From Bacillus weihaiensis (lineage in GTDB: Bacteria > Bacillota > Bacilli > Bacillales > Bacillaceae): DNA of 64,000 nt. The DNA is taken from assembly GCF_001889165.1 (NCBI RefSeq), contig NZ_CP016020.1:744001-808000 (forward strand). The letters run 5' to 3'. Both the position numbers and the translations under genes were made by a program. The notes beneath the pieces are model-generated. The model ran no database searches and was not told the DNA's origin. It was given only the letters and a program-made list of their open reading frames with translations. Of the stretch, positions 10 to 58,908 are shown one piece after another. Numbering within the stretch: the first letter of the stretch is position 1; each line of letters begins with the position of its first letter.

Positions 10-1623
10 ATGAATAAATACTTACAAACATTGGTGAAAAACGTACGTAAACAATTAGAAGCTTGGTTAAATGAACAAGAAGGGATTCACCATAGAGAGT
101 TATTTCGATTTCTTCACTCGATATCAGGTACAGCGGAAACAATTGGTTTTAGTGAAGCGGGGAAAATGGCTCGTTCATTAATGGAGAGCATCGATGAGAA
201 AGAGGATAAAGAGTGGACAAAGGAAGAGCTCCAATCCTTCCTCTTCCCTCTTATTTCAATCTTTTATCACGAGGAGTATTCTAATGTTGATGAAGTTATT
301 ACTAAAAAAGAGAATCTCGATGATCAAAAGCTCATTCTATTAATTGACGATGATACAGCCTTATTAATGTATTTAAAAGATGAATTAGAAAAAAACGGTT
401 GGGTTGTCATCGCTGTAGCAGATTCGGAACGAGCTATTCATTCTTATTATGATTTAAATCCTGATTGTGTCATTATTGATATTCATATGAAGGATAAAAA
501 TGGGTTAGAGGTTCTTAGCCATTTGAAGGAGCAAATGAATCAGCATTTTATTCCGACTATTATGATCAGTGTGGATAAGTCGAAAGAAATGAGAATGAAG
601 AGCTATGAGCTTGGTGCAGATGATTATATTCAGAAACCATTAGAAATGGATGAATTCATTGTTAGAATAACTAGACAGCTGGACCGTAAACAGGCCATTG
701 ATGATTTAATATTAGTGGATGAACTAACAAGAGTCTATAATCGAAAGTATCTTCCGCAGGTGTATGATCGATTAGTCAATCAATTACAAAGACACTATGA
801 AACATTCTCTATTGGAATGCTGGATTTAGACCACTTTAAATCAGTTAATGATACATATGGACATATTATTGGTGATAAAGTGCTGGCGAGCTTTGCTGAA
901 ATGTTAAAAAATACGTTAAGGTTAAATGATGTTGTTATTCGATACGGTGGGGAAGAGTTTATAGTATTACTTCCTGACACGAAGGCAGATGACGCAAAGC
1001 TTGTCCTTGATCGAATACTACAAGATTTTTCGAAGCAAACATTTGCTAAAAATGGAGAATCGTTCACATGCACATTTTCTGCTGGAGTTCATGAAGTGCA
1101 AGTACATGAATTGGATTTGACAAAGAATATTGAATTAGCAGATAGTGCATTATATGAGGCGAAACAGGCAGGGAGGGCACAGGTGAAAATTGTTCCTGTC
1201 ACGGAAGGAACTTATCTCAAAAAGCCTGTTCATCTTGGAATTATTGACGACGACCCAATTATTAGAACGATGTTAGAAGATTTAATGAGTAAAAGCAAGT
1301 TTACAGAACAGTTCAAGCTTGATATTCGTTCGTTTAAGGACGGTATGGAGTTTATGGAAAGTGATTGGCATACAATAAAAGATGAGCCTTATCTCATTAT
1401 ATTAGATGGAATGATGCCAAGAATGGATGGATTAGAGGTGCTGCAAAGCCTACGTAAAATGAGGTATCAAGAGCGTTTTACAATTATGATGCTGACTTCT
1501 AGAAAAAGTGATCATGATATCTCACGAGCACTTCAGCTTGGTGCAGATGATTATATTACAAAACCATTTAAGTTATTGGAGCTCGAAACAAGGCTAGGTC
1601 ATTTACTAAAGAGGATGAAATAA
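10..1623 (+). CDS. HPt-REC-GGDEF-REC diguanylate cyclase/response regulator
   Basis: Predicted cytoplasmic c-di-GMP synthase controlled by phosphorelay. Domains seen in order: an HPt-like helical domain (residues 1-90, candidate phospho-His36 in FLHSISGTAE), a REC domain (about 107-225, acidic DDD pocket, phospho-Asp157 in CVIIDIHM), a GGDEF domain (about 235-395, active site RYGGEEF near residue 311, inhibitory RxxD motif RLND at 303-306), and a second REC (about 408-535, Asp466 in LIILDGMM). The intact GGEEF and I-site suggest an active, product-inhibited cyclase; that is inference from the family. It is the first gene of an operon with a HEAT protein and a glycosyltransferase, with one base to the next start. 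The ribosome binding site lies at or before the window edge, so the start is less certain than the reading frame. Confidence 0.9.
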   Translation: MNKYLQTLVKNVRKQLEAWLNEQEGIHHRELFRFLHSISGTAETIGFSEAGKMARSLMESIDEKEDKEWTKEELQSFLFPLISIFYHEEYSNVDEVITKKENLDDQKLILLIDDDTALLMYLKDELEKNGWVVIAVADSERAIHSYYDLNPDCVIIDIHMKDKNGLEVLSHLKEQMNQHFIPTIMISVDKSKEMRMKSYELGADDYIQKPLEMDEFIVRITRQLDRKQAIDDLILVDELTRVYNRKYLPQVYDRLVNQLQRHYETFSIGMLDLDHFKSVNDTYGHIIGDKVLASFAEMLKNTLRLNDVVIRYGGEEFIVLLPDTKADDAKLVLDRILQDFSKQTFAKNGESFTCTFSAGVHEVQVHELDLTKNIELADSALYEAKQAGRAQVKIVPVTEGTYLKKPVHLGIIDDDPIIRTMLEDLMSKSKFTEQFKLDIRSFKDGMEFMESDWHTIKDEPYLIILDGMMPRMDGLEVLQSLRKMRYQERFTIMMLTSRKSDHDISRALQLGADDYITKPFKLLELETRLGHLLKRMK

Positions 1624-13321: not shown

Positions 13322-13452
13322 GCCCGAATCGCGGATAGAGGAGCCGGAATCGCGGAAAGAGGTGTGGGAATCGCGGAAAGAGGTGTGGGAATCGCGGAAA
13401 GAGGTGCCGGAATCGCGGAAAGAGGTGCCGGAATCGCGGATAGAAGCCTGAA
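13322..13452 (+). repeat. 21-bp tandem repeat array, segment 1a
   Basis: About six units of 21 bp, type GAATCGCGGAAAGAGGTGTGG, with the invariant core AATCGCGGA. There are no spacers. The 21-bp period equals seven codons, so reading frames here encode spurious seven-residue repeats. Confidence 0.9.
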
Positions 13453-13652
13453 AATTGCTGATGAGGGCTCGAAAATCAGGATAAAGCACTAAAATCATGG
13501 AATAAAAGACAAATCTGACAAATTACGTACCTAAAGATTATGATCGTGAAGTTTGAATGCTGCCTTTCATAATGAATTGAAATTTTTTCCGTTACGTAGA
13601 AGGAAGAAGAGGAGCTAGATGTTGCACAAAATGTCGTAAATTGTGGTATGAG

Positions 13653-13849
13653 CCCGAATCGCGGATAGAAGCCCCAAAATCGCGGATAGAAGCCCCAAAA
13701 TCGCGGATAGAAGCCCCAAAATCGCGGATAGAAGCCCCAAAATCGCGGATAGAGCACCCAAAATCGCGGATAGAAGTCCAAGAATCGCGGATAGAGCACC
13801 CGAAATCGCGGATAGAAGCCCCAAAATCGCGGATAGAGCACCCAAAATC
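13653..13849 (+). repeat. 21-bp tandem repeat array, segment 1b (left of the IS)
   Basis: About nine units of the form AATCGCGGATAGAAGCCCCAA, varying only in the 3' half (GCCCCA, GCACCC, GTCCAAG). The array stops abruptly at the left inverted repeat of the IS and resumes at 15327. Confidence 0.95.
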
Positions 13850-13881
13850 GATAAAGTCCATATAATTGTGTAAAAAGAAAG

Positions 13882-15326: not shown

Positions 15327-15405
15327 CCAAAATCGCGGATAGAAGCCCAAGAATCGCGGATAGAGCACCCAAAATCACGAATAGAGCACCCAAAATCACT
15401 TATTA
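15327..15405 (+). repeat. 21-bp tandem repeat array, segment 1c (right of the IS)
   Basis: The array continues after the IS with about three to four units that become more degenerate (AATCACGAATAGAGCACCC). Removing the IS and one CCAAAATC copy joins segments 1b and 1c without changing the 21-bp phase. Confidence 0.9.
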
Positions 15406-36495: not shown

Positions 36496-36546
36496 CTCAT
36501 TAACTAAAAACACTTATGTCCCAGCCTCTTCTAGTAAAATCTTTTT

Positions 36547-36825
36547 TTACCTTATTATAAGCCCGTGTTTTTCCTTTAATGAGTCTGGAGCAATTTTTAT
36601 CATTCTGTCTAATATAAAGGTTGCGATTACAAGATCATCTAGTACCCCAAGGACAGAAAGGAAGTCTGGAATAAGGTCAAAAGGAAAGAAGATATATACG
36701 AGTAAAAGGCTGACTCCCAAGACTTTTTTTGAGAGAGGTACCTGCTTTGTTAGAAAAAAATCCTTTAGGAACGGAATAAATTTCCAAAAAGTTAAGATGA
36801 ATTTGAATCGCTTGATAAATTTCAT
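36547..36825 (-). CDS. DUF1232 (YkvA-type) membrane protein
   Basis: 92 aa. The family core VYIFFPFDLIPDFLSVLGVLDDLVIATFIL is clear, with TM helices at about 36-52 and 58-76 and a basic N-terminus. Function is unknown. It is the third gene of the set led by the manganese riboswitch (FbpB-like, Spo0M-like, DUF1232) with 40 bases between it and the Spo0M-like gene. Confidence 0.85.
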   Translation of the reverse strand: MKFIKRFKFILTFWKFIPFLKDFFLTKQVPLSKKVLGVSLLLVYIFFPFDLIPDFLSVLGVLDDLVIATFILDRMIKIAPDSLKEKHGLIIR

Positions 36826-36865
36826 TTGTTTTCAACACTCCTGGATCATTCTGGAAGATTTCCTG

Positions 36866-37255
36866 TTAATGAACATAAATAATGTCAAGGTCTTTACTTT
36901 CAACACCTTCGTTAAAAACGAGTCTAGTCTTAAAACGATAAGAGATCGACTGTGAGGAAGGTGTAAGAGTTTCTGGTAATTGAAAGGTGAAATGTAGATG
37001 GTTTGTCTCTTCAGAATGAATAACTTTAGAAGATAAGATTGTTACTGTATCTACAACCGTTTCTTTCTCAGTTTTATGGTCAATTCTCATTAAATCACAT
37101 TCAATTCGCCTAAGACGTTGTTCAATAGTACCGCCTTTAATTAAGAAGTGGCCTTTGATGAGTTCACCTTTATGATAATGTGACTTAGGTAAAATAAGGT
37201 CAATTAAAGCAGATCCAACTCCTAACAAAGACATATATTTTCGCAAAAGCATCAT
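36866..37255 (-). CDS. Half-length Spo0M-like (arrestin-fold) protein
   Basis: 129 aa. LLGVGSALIDLILPKSHYHKGELIKGHFLIKGGTIEQ matches the N-terminal arrestin-like domain of Spo0M (about 258 aa in B. subtilis), and the sequence ends after that domain at LDIIYVH. Since the reading frame closes cleanly and the context is intact, I read it as a natural short form and not a broken gene. GGAGG lies 6 bases ahead. Its ATG overlaps the stop of the FbpB-like gene (ATGA), so the two are coupled. Confidence 0.8.
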   Translation of the reverse strand: MMLLRKYMSLLGVGSALIDLILPKSHYHKGELIKGHFLIKGGTIEQRLRRIECDLMRIDHKTEKETVVDTVTILSSKVIHSEETNHLHFTFQLPETLTPSSQSISYRFKTRLVFNEGVESKDLDIIYVH

Positions 37256-37395
37256 CGGTTTCCTCCATTGTTAGTTATTTTTGTAATCTTTTCATCAACA
37301 CGTTTTTCAATTACGTCTAGCAGCTCTTTATTTTTAAGAAGTTCTTCCTTGTTTTGTTTAATTAACTCAAGATAGGATTTTTTCTTGGTAAACAT
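37252..37395 (-). CDS. Small FbpB-like basic protein
   Basis: 47 aa. The stretch KKKSYLELIKQNKEELLK followed by NKELLDVIEKRVDEK matches the pattern of Fur-regulated basic protein B (Fur_reg_FbpB), small proteins linked in B. subtilis to the iron-sparing sRNA FsrA. AAAGGAG lies 9 bases before ATG 37395; an earlier overlapping ATG is in a frame that stops after 11 codons. The stop overlaps the Spo0M-like start. I see no Fur box upstream; instead the leader holds a manganese riboswitch. Confidence 0.65.
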   Translation of the reverse strand: MFTKKKSYLELIKQNKEELLKNKELLDVIEKRVDEKITKITNNGGNR

Positions 37396-37502
37396 TTTTC
37401 ATTTCTCCTTTAGTAAAGGGATTTAAATGTAGAACCGGTCGGTAGAGGCTTTTTGATTGATGTATCCTAAAGTGAGCAACGTCTTAATCGATAACATCGT
37501 AT

Positions 37503-37535
37503 AAAAAAAAACCTTTACCACATATGGTAAAGGTT
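37503..37535 (-). terminator. Second hairpin of the riboswitch platform (strong terminator)
   Basis: On the minus strand AACCTTTACCA (37535-37525) pairs with TGGTAAAGGTT (37520-37510) around a 4-base loop, followed by eight T. It repeats the CCTTTACC/GGTAAAGG sequence of the hairpin just upstream (37552-37576). Confidence 0.85.
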
Positions 37536-37551
37536 TTTAAAGAAATAAAAG

Positions 37552-37664
37552 GACCTTTACCAAAATAGTAAAGGTCTTGCTAACAACCAAGGTTGCCAAC
37601 AAAGCCGAGAAGGTGAAATTCCTTCTGTAATGACGACTTTATTGTAAAAGCTACTCCCCTTTAG
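37552..37664 (-). ncRNA. yybP-ykoY manganese riboswitch
   Basis: On the minus strand the aptamer opens with TAAAGGGGAGTAGC (about 37664-37651), continues with AAAGTCGTCATTAC and CGGCTTTGTTGGC and closes with TTAGCAAGACCTTTAC (about 37583-37568), all hallmarks of the yybP-ykoY Mn2+ class. The closing strand also pairs with GGTAAAGGTC (37561-37552), giving the alternative hairpin. In known members Mn binding stabilises the first helix and turns expression on. The first gene downstream is the FbpB-like gene 157 bases away. Confidence 0.88.
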
Positions 37665-37689
37665 GAGACCGATTCAATTATATACATTA

Positions 37690-37718
37690 ATAATAAACGA
37701 GAAGTAGCGTTTAGTCAA
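37690..37718 (-). promoter_or_regulatory. SigA-type promoter of the minus-strand riboswitch
   Basis: TTGACT (37718-37713), 17-base spacer, TATTAT (37695-37690), about 25 bases before the aptamer. Confidence 0.75.
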
Positions 37719-37763
37719 TATAGAAATCAACTAGTGGAATACACTAACAAGAAAGTATGAAAA

Positions 37764-38501
37764 TTAGTTTTTCATCAACGCTTCTAGTAATTGCATGGGT
37801 ATCGGAAACTGATCTTGATCGATTTTCACGATCATTTCATCAGAGTTAGTTTCTTTATCTAAATGCTTTAATACATTCACTTCTTTATTTAATTGCTCCA
37901 TTTTTTTATCTAGCATCATAGCTTTAGTTGCGGCATCTTTAAGTTCGGTTAAAAGATGTTCGGGAATATCTTTATTATATTTATAGTAGATTTTATGCTC
38001 CAGACTTGCCCAAAAGTCCATAGCGATGGTTCTGATTTGAATTTCTACATACACATTTTCTTCACGATCGGACATGAAGATTGGAATTTGCAAAATAAGA
38101 TGAAGACTTTGATAGCCATTTGGTTTTGGTGTCTGGATATAATCCTTACTTTCTACAATAGTAATATCCTTTTGATTTGCAAGCATGTTACGTATTTCAT
38201 ATATATCTGATATAAAAGATACCGTGATCCGAATCCCTGCTATATCACGAACTTGGTCTTTAATAGATTGTAATGAGTAGGGAATCCCTTTCTTCGCCAC
38301 TTTCTTCATCAGACTTTCTGGAGATTTGAGTCTTGATTTTACATGTTCAATAGGATTGTAATCATGTATATACGTAAATTCATCCTTTAAGATATTAATT
38401 TTCGTATTTACTTCATCAATTGCAAATTTATATGCCATCATAAAACGAGTCATTTCTACTTTCATTTTCTTTATGTCATTTATATCAATTTGTTGGATCA
38501 C
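37764..38501 (-). CDS. sasA: Small alarmone (p)ppGpp synthetase
   Basis: 245 aa RelA/SpoT-type synthetase of the SasA/RelP (YwaC) group, transferring pyrophosphate from ATP to GDP or GTP. KFAIDEVNTKINILKDEF and HDYNPIEHVKSRLKS, then DIAGIRITVSFISDIYEI, the catalytic stretch DYIQTPKPNGYQSLHLIL and VEIQIRTIAMDFWASLEHKIYYK match YwaC closely. There is no hydrolase domain. The C-terminus is about 35 residues longer than in B. subtilis. The start is GTG with a distant AGAGGAA. In B. subtilis ywaC is induced by envelope stress. Confidence 0.93.
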   Translation of the reverse strand: MIQQIDINDIKKMKVEMTRFMMAYKFAIDEVNTKINILKDEFTYIHDYNPIEHVKSRLKSPESLMKKVAKKGIPYSLQSIKDQVRDIAGIRITVSFISDIYEIRNMLANQKDITIVESKDYIQTPKPNGYQSLHLILQIPIFMSDREENVYVEIQIRTIAMDFWASLEHKIYYKYNKDIPEHLLTELKDAATKAMMLDKKMEQLNKEVNVLKHLDKETNSDEMIVKIDQDQFPIPMQLLEALMKN

Positions 38502-45045: not shown

Positions 45046-45155
45046 CGTAAAGGGGAGTAGCGTCAGGTTCAACCTGAAACAAAGTCGTCAATACATGAAC
45101 TTTTGTTCATCGGCTTTGTTGGCATATAGTTATGTGCTTAGCGAGACCTTTGCCA
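45046..45155 (+). ncRNA. yybP-ykoY manganese riboswitch
   Basis: Conserved blocks in order: CGTAAAGGGGAGTAGCGTC, AAAGTCGTCAATACATG, CGGCTTTGTTGGC and TTAGCGAGACCTTTGCC. The last block pairs with the first in the aptamer or with GGCAAAGGTCTC in the terminator. It stands before a TerC/YjbE-family gene, its usual partner, so Mn2+ should switch on the exporter. Confidence 0.95.
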
Positions 45156-46033: not shown

Positions 46034-46106
46034 TTGCCTAGTAGTGGTAGTGAGCGGGAAAAGCTATATTTATAGAGATTTCCTCTAGTATTGGTCTTTT
46101 TTTGAG

Positions 46107-46260
46107 CTGTATCCGCGATTATGGTTGCTGTATCCGCGATTTTAGGTGTTGTATCCGCGATTATGGTTGCTGTATCCGCGATTTTAGGTGTTGTATCCGC
46201 GATTATGGTTGCTCTATCCGCGATTTTAGGTGCTCTATCCGCGATTCTGCACGTCTTATC
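46107..46260 (-). repeat. 21-bp tandem repeat array 2 (inverted orientation)
   Basis: About seven units with core TATCCGCGATT, the reverse complement of the AATCGCGGATA core at 13653, in the same 21-bp period. Two unit types alternate: one with ATGGTTGC and one with TTAGGTG. The last unit degrades into CTTATCTGCTATTC. Confidence 0.93.
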
Positions 46261-58802: not shown

Positions 58803-58908
58803 CGAATCGCGGATAGAGCGTGTAAAATCGCGGATAGAGCACCCATAATCGCGGATAGAGCGTGTAAAATCGCGGATAGATCATCCATAATCGCGGATAG
58901 AACGTGAG
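58803..58908 (+). repeat. 21-bp tandem repeat array 3
   Basis: Five units with core AATCGCGGATAGA in a 21-bp period; GAGCGTGTAA and GAGCACCCAT type 3' halves alternate. Same orientation as the first array. A short run of AGAGCGAA repeats (58742-58790) precedes it. Confidence 0.93.

Follow-up and report, generated by a model that had tools for sequence, protein, structure and literature searches.

A putative Mn2+ riboswitch without P2 and with tandem terminators ahead of an FbpB-like/Spo0M-like/DUF1232 operon in Bacillus weihaiensis

Introduction

TerC, a membrane protein that handles manganese, is a known target of riboswitches of the yybP-ykoY class. As described in the accessible text of the two reports, the RF00080 switches of L. 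lactis (PMC11087558) and of H. halodurans ykoY (PMC10898510) have the conserved core in common, the 3′ strand of their switch helix, P1.1, doubles as a terminator arm, and both studied cases follow an ON logic, the H. halodurans ykoY leader being an ON Mn switch with an intrinsic terminator. According to the accessible part of PMC10550928, exported enzymes receive their metal from the TerC proteins MeeF and MeeY, and a Mn riboswitch controls meeY. Two serial terminators within one leader are described for tandem riboswitch gates such as those for Na+ and c-di-AMP (PMC9337991, PMC9481103), in which two aptamers are present, one per terminator. No tandem Mn2+ riboswitch had been reported, as far as the accessible text of PMC9481103 goes.

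The leader described here resembles the L. lactis and H. halodurans switches in its conserved core and in a switch-helix 3′ strand (of P1 rather than P1.1) that doubles as a terminator arm, and its presumed ON direction follows the ykoY precedent. It differs from both in lacking P2, in a second terminator apparently tied to the 3′ arm of the first, and in the FbpB-like, Spo0M-like and DUF1232 genes behind it. Like the Na+/c-di-AMP gates it carries two serial terminators, but with a single aptamer, for which we propose a strand-exchange chain.

Results

Anatomy of the locus

The window analysed is a stretch of 64,000 nucleotides of B. weihaiensis (contig NZ_CP016020.1, positions 744,001 to 808,000). 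The promoter, yybP-ykoY-class aptamer and terminators that the initial annotation had placed on the minus strand were all confirmed (Table 1), the aptamer by an RF00080 match and by covariation and the terminators as two hairpins, T1 and T2. Equally, the predicted FbpB-like, half-length Spo0M-like and DUF1232 genes behind the switch all scored above the gathering levels of their Pfam families, and the ATGA overlap of the FbpB-like stop and the Spo0M-like start was found at 37255-37252.

Table 1. Coordinates of the features discussed, in window positions
Feature	Position	Strand	Evidence
Sigma-A-type promoter, TTGACT-17-TATTAT	37690..37718	-	Sequence match; similar pair at the same place in 28/28 family leaders
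P2-less Mn2+ (yybP-ykoY) aptamer, putative	37570..37665	-	RF00080, own model R1, covariation of 34 relatives
P1 switch helix, 5′ strand AAAGG	37658..37662	-	Alignment A2 and pair counts
P1 3′ strand CCTTT, common to the 5′ arm of terminator 1	37570..37574	-	
Terminator 1 (T1): stem 37576-37552 and interrupted U tract	37539..37576	-	
Terminator 2 (T2): stem 37538-37507 and U tract	37503..37538	-	
Proposed helix X (second antiterminator)	37526..37561	-	Folding and arm covariation across leaders
Helix X arms: T1 3′ arm with T2 5′ arm	37561-37553 with 37534-37526	-	
FbpB-like small protein, 47 aa	37252..37395	-	PF13040
Short Spo0M-like protein, 129 aa, matching the first half of Spo0M	36866..37255	-	PF07070
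DUF1232 protein, 92 aa	36547..36825	-	PF06803
Comparator: P2-containing Mn2+ switch before TerC	45046..45151	+	RF00080 40.6 bits; R1 54.7 bits
Comparator: TerC-family gene, 232 aa	45275..45973	+	PF03741 163.9 bits

Three promoter-like sites were seen between 36500 and 38000 versus 5.5 expected in shuffles, so the promoter match in the window is by itself not beyond chance; a match to TTGAnn-16..18-TAnnWT lies upstream in 28/28 leaders of the family set. Terminator-like sites numbered five versus 0.8 expected, two of them being T1 and T2 and the others lying within the aptamer or at its edge. In line with the single promoter-aptamer-terminator unit of the initial annotation, no promoter-like site was found between T2 and the FbpB-like start (37395-37503), and a separate promoter for the operon behind T2 is unlikely. 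T2 and the FbpB-like gene are 111 nt apart in the window; of 52 tandem leaders with FbpB, 36 have a gap of at most 80 nt. Matches of PyrR and L20-leader models over both hairpins stayed below their gathering scores and fit a hairpin-plus-U-tract sequence, and they were rejected. A gene for a RelA/SpoT-type (YjbM-like) alarmone synthetase (37764-38501, minus strand) ends just upstream of the promoter on the same strand.

A P2-less subclass of the yybP-ykoY aptamer

The suggested check with the yybP-ykoY covariance model had a divided outcome: RF00080 matched 37582-37665 (minus strand) with an E-value of 5.3e-6 in 601 nt and 8.7e-6 genome-wide, but with 28.6 bits, under the gathering score of 45 bits, which is a detection threshold and no biochemical property. 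A scan of the whole window at the gathering level returned no Rfam match. The score falls short probably because the P2 hairpin is missing from the window aptamer, which our own model R1 scored at 94.6 bits, the window sequence itself being in the training set. The comparator switch, 7.5 kb from the window unit and with one terminator, is also below the Rfam cut-off (40.6 of 45); no second terminator was found after it.

Alignment A2, which comprises 34 diverse P2-less members and takes its structure from the window sequence, had 94.2% of pair cells standard, and its covariation score was reached by 0/500 shuffles. Sixteen of 25 pairs were changed on both sides (1/500 shuffles as high), pair counts that relatedness and the window-derived structure can inflate, and when the structure was slid as a control, paired cells dropped to 57% or less. 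The conserved core loops and helices of the class, with covariation, are present in the window aptamer. The invariant residues of A2 (AGGGGAGTAGC, CGTCA and AGC.AGACCTT) also occur in both P2-containing switches before TerC in this genome, at window 45046-45151 and contig position 2728072. From its class and conserved core, the ligand of the window leader is presumably Mn2+.

Of 397 genomes of the order, 272 contained the pattern GGGGAGTAGCN{9,14}GTCGTCA; its reversed control gave 0 among the matches listed. None of the 20 named short-Spo0M loci tried reached the Rfam cut-off, which suggests that the P2-less subclass often scores below it and is hence overlooked in routine annotation. The genome's fourth Mn switch (L113; contig 2845156-2845247, minus strand) is likewise P2-less, matches R1 and precedes a 263-aa TerC; it was absent from the RF00080 matches in the genome, and the finder detected no second terminator in its leader.

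Conservation of the switch and the short Spo0M unit

Comparison across relatives, proposed earlier as a check on this locus, bore the unit out, within the genus and outside it. A family search of 80 genomes, from which 30 loci were fetched and weaker matches, including second copies in genus g3, were left out, placed the aptamer before the short Spo0M-like gene in 28 of the 30; in the two loci without it, L061 and L062, the homologue is more distant (46 and 44% identity). When named GTDB genomes were scanned with the short-Spo0M alignment, 80 loci were obtained among the matches listed, a set biased to this Spo0M subfamily because it was drawn by two peptide patterns. R1 matched within ~600 nt upstream in 79/80 of these Bacillales loci (82.9-103.5 bits; L239 is the exception); by locus id, 4 of the 79 were R1 training rows, and some others probably come from genomes already represented among those rows. 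With unit membership defined by R1 coordinates and genes <550 nt apart, T2 followed 78 of the 79 switches, an FbpB-like gene 46, DUF1232 25, TerC 22 and a kinase-like gene 8. The nearest named relatives among the matches listed belong to Metabacillus; the other named genera include Mesobacillus, Peribacillus, Lederbergia, Rossellomorea, Litchfieldia, Domibacillus, Niallia and Robertmurraya. One record titled Chryseobacterium (L262) has this Bacillales unit and is probably a mislabelled or mixed assembly.

TerC as a partner of the operon genes

For the other 57 of the 79 named switches, some of them with incomplete locus sequences, no TerC was found in the unit. The order FbpB-Spo0M-DUF1232-TerC recurs, with Mesobacillus foraminis (L204), Peribacillus saganii (L210) and Litchfieldia salsa (L211) as examples, and genus g3 has FbpB-Spo0M-TerC. 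The claim that the three genes lie outside the usual Mn targets is thus not supported as worded, since the same cassette runs into TerC in other genera. The TerC at 2.845 Mb shares 85% identity with the operon TerC of genus g3, compared with 73% for the genome's own TerC at 2.728 Mb. Because TerC shares the unit in 22/79 loci, the three window genes appear to belong to a TerC/Mn operon as accessory members, TerC itself having presumably moved elsewhere in this Metabacillus-like genome, and their products may act with TerC in Mn handling.

A census with our own profiles of 89 pattern-drawn P2-less leaders with >900 nt downstream found T2 in 68 and, behind the switches, TerC in 51, FbpB-like in 10, DUF1232 in 9, Spo0M-like in 9, protein-kinase-like in 8 and YybP-type (DUF6376) in 6, with none of these families behind 18. 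This bears on whether the P2-less variant senses a divalent ion other than Mn2+, as might be suspected from the unusual genes that the set drives and from a review that, in its accessible text, expects yybP variants of altered specificity where genes ill fit Mn (PMC7266159). TerC, however, is the most frequent of the families sought, and the invariant residues of A2 are the same in the genome's two P2 switches before TerC, so a different ligand appears quite improbable.

The operon proteins and the iron question

The FbpB model score, on which the initial annotation had made its case depend, stood in one part and failed in the other: the window protein reached 46.1 bits against PF13040 (cut-off 25) but 23 bits against the FbpB equivalog NF033227 (cut-off 60). 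The Spo0M-like protein scored 66.8 bits against PF07070 (cut-off 23) over profile positions 1-135 of 213 and lacks the second half of full-length Spo0M; the short-Spo0M family profile aligned with residues 4-127 of the solved Spo0M (PDB 5cl2) at 62.5 bits, so that the likeness is to the N-terminal half and the window protein differs in being half as long. The DUF1232 protein scored 39 bits against PF06803 (cut-off 23).

With at most three mismatches to the consensus TGATAATNATTATCA, no Fur-box-like site was found in 36500-38000, and the whole window held 13 versus 12.7 expected; the test is weak because the genome's other PF13040 gene (L278) has no such site either. Fur control of the FbpB-like gene was rejected on this weak test. 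Nor did the analysis find any sign of an iron link. Membership of PF13040, and the role of B. subtilis FbpB with FsrA in iron sparing (the RNA chaperone role is only postulated in the accessible text of PMC8464778), would fit an iron-sparing factor whose Mn control couples Mn excess to iron economy. We hold this to be rather unlikely, for the protein is far under the equivalog cut-off, the FbpB-like gene is missing in some relatives that retain the switch and Spo0M, its partners include TerC in several genera, and no Fur-box-like site lies nearby. Compared with the Fur-regulated FbpB of B. subtilis, the window protein is alike as a small PF13040 protein but differs in its score, its Mn switch and the lack of a detected Fur-box-like site. 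Genus g4 has an FbpB-like gene (39.3 bits, PF13040) behind a P2-less switch, there with another partner.

Tandem terminators and their arms

In 205 distinct leaders, 173 P2-less and 32 with P2, a second terminator was present in 148/173 versus 0/32, the P2 set coming only from the genome's own family; the 25 P2-less leaders in which T2 was not found include the genome's own TerC leader (L113). The T1 3′ arm (3′a) is complementary to the T2 5′ arm (5′b), and the two window hairpins have arm sequences in common. At the fourth base after CC, T1 of the P2 leaders has G-C in 32/32, the tandem leaders have U at that 3′-arm position in 140/143, opposite A (105), G (27) or C (8) of their own 5′ arm (5′a), at least some of the C cases reflecting a one-base shift of CCTTA arms, and the 25 P2-less single-terminator leaders are mixed. 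The longest U run behind T1 averaged 4.05 in tandem leaders, 4.84 in P2-less single leaders and 6.06 in P2 leaders.

The duplex of 3′a with 5′b, helix X, averaged -14.5 kcal/mol over 137 arm sets versus -6.3 with arms of 115 generic terminators, and 95.6% versus 17.6% were at or below -10. When 5′b arms were permuted among leaders, 0/2000 permutations matched the observed strength at each of six similarity cut-offs (n 128 to 17) and 166/2000 did so at n 9; as the leaders are related the permutations are not fully independent. In the same 2000-permutation series, which with its equal arm extension served as control, the mirror pairing of 5′a with the T2 3′ arm (3′b) gave 60 to 1045 of 2000, little or no covariation; with arms of unequal extension (n 27), 3′a·5′b gave 7/5000 and the mirror 4457/5000, and in that series similarity cut-offs of 0.72 and 0.68, at which 2 and 1 leaders remained, are uninformative. 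On the mirror-pairing test, T1/T2 likeness was rejected as the whole cause of the complementarity. At the third base, C of 5′b accompanied G of 3′a in 4/10 leaders and A in 3/97 (Fisher P 0.0012, uncorrected for relatedness). Nine leaders have the T1 5′ arm CCTTA with P1 matched to it; in six of them the T1 3′ arm is GGTAAAGG, matching the T2 arm and not its own 5′ arm, and three do not retain GGTAAAGG. In 127/136 leaders the T1 3′ arm holds a base whose only Watson-Crick partner lies in its own 5′ arm, and in 66/136 it holds one with such a partner only in the T2 arm.

In folding of the full leader at equilibrium with 5′a blocked, T2 beat X in 103/136 leaders and X won in 33, and therefore capture by X would have to outlast the passage of polymerase. 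In the window, X appeared during chain growth and was level with T2 at full length (P1+T2 with enforced P1, -43.5; P1+X, -43.0). With 5′a blocked and 3′b not yet made, X folded in 136/136 leaders, a weak test because X then has little competition. With 5′a free, X and not T1 was the minimum in 26/136 leaders, the window included, and the OFF state therefore also needs the order of synthesis. Equilibrium folding is no proof of a domino, and in most leaders the ON state would have to be kinetic.

These data have to be weighed against a genuine Mn switch whose T1 and T2 are independent and redundant, with arms alike since T2 is a copy of T1. T1 and T2 arms are indeed near identical in many leaders, the loops of L055 match too, and T2 is the usual equilibrium winner. 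Yet a copy should make both cross pairings covary alike, and only 3′a·5′b clearly does; the yybP-type leaders L063, L064 and L066-L069 match 3′a to 5′b while their T1 has wobbles, and most CCTTA leaders hold 3′a matched to 5′b, not 5′a. An uncoupled T2 would, moreover, be expected to cap expression even in Mn. We therefore think independent terminators unlikely, though a serious alternative.

Discussion

The explanation that we consider probable, which builds on the observed anatomy, conservation, covariation and gene order, is a Mn2+-ON, P2-less yybP-ykoY switch in which T1 and T2 form a chain via X and whose operon is an accessory module of a TerC-type Mn operon. At low Mn2+ the P1 3′ strand would be free and T1 would form, and polymerase leaking past T1 would meet T2. 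With Mn2+ bound, P1 would keep the T1 5′ arm and leave the T1 3′ arm unpaired, and the freed arm would capture the T2 5′ arm in helix X before the T2 3′ arm is made, so that one binding event could make both terminators fail like dominoes. The order of synthesis would set the choice of P1 or T1 first and that of X versus T2 afterwards. The presumed kinetic capture by X is the weak point of this mechanism, and the ON direction is proposed by analogy with ykoY switches. In sister genera the same switch would drive FbpB-Spo0M-DUF1232-TerC; here the most similar TerC lies elsewhere behind its own presumed Mn switch. The missing P2, the arm sequences common to both hairpins and TerC after the same genes in sister genera go beyond the initial annotation.

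To a wider proposal we give about even chances: that one aptamer runs two serial terminators, by P1 and then X, widely among the P2-less Mn riboswitches of Bacillales, and that the FbpB-like/Spo0M-like/DUF1232 module is Mn-induced with TerC, perhaps for Mn delivery to exported enzymes. Our literature search, with subscription papers mostly outside it, yielded no earlier report of yybP-ykoY with FbpB or with two terminators, none evidently linking Spo0M, manganese and a riboswitch, and, in the accessible text of the sources, no evident one-aptamer serial-terminator riboswitch, the reports of second terminators concerning two-aptamer systems; all this is weak evidence of absence. If the proposal is true, stacked terminators would let an abundant riboswitch class shut off more tightly with a single aptamer. 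This would be one possible reason why tandem Mn riboswitches remain unseen (PMC9481103, accessible text), and it would supply a simple principle for designing low-leak RNA switches. The proposal would also give short Spo0M-like, DUF1232 and FbpB-like proteins a regulatory context beyond Fur control, as partners in TerC operons.

Several minor observations were made alongside. P2-less tandem-terminator switches also precede DUF6376 proteins (L063, L064, L066-L069, L080 and L081; Pfam was run on the L063 protein only), which we take to be YybP, and by eye a tiny basic reading frame of ~40 aa precedes the DUF6376 gene in L063, L064 and L066-L069. A protein-kinase-like family lies behind Mn switches in L074, L076, L077, L110 and L111, the L074 protein scoring 18.7 bits against Pkinase, under the cut-off of 31.7, and by eye a SulP-like transporter adjoins the kinase-like gene in L074 and L076. 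Elsewhere in the window, a 21-bp unit around ATCGCGGATAGAG, or around its complement, forms arrays at 13322-13850, 15327-15397, 46106-46246 and 58805-58906.
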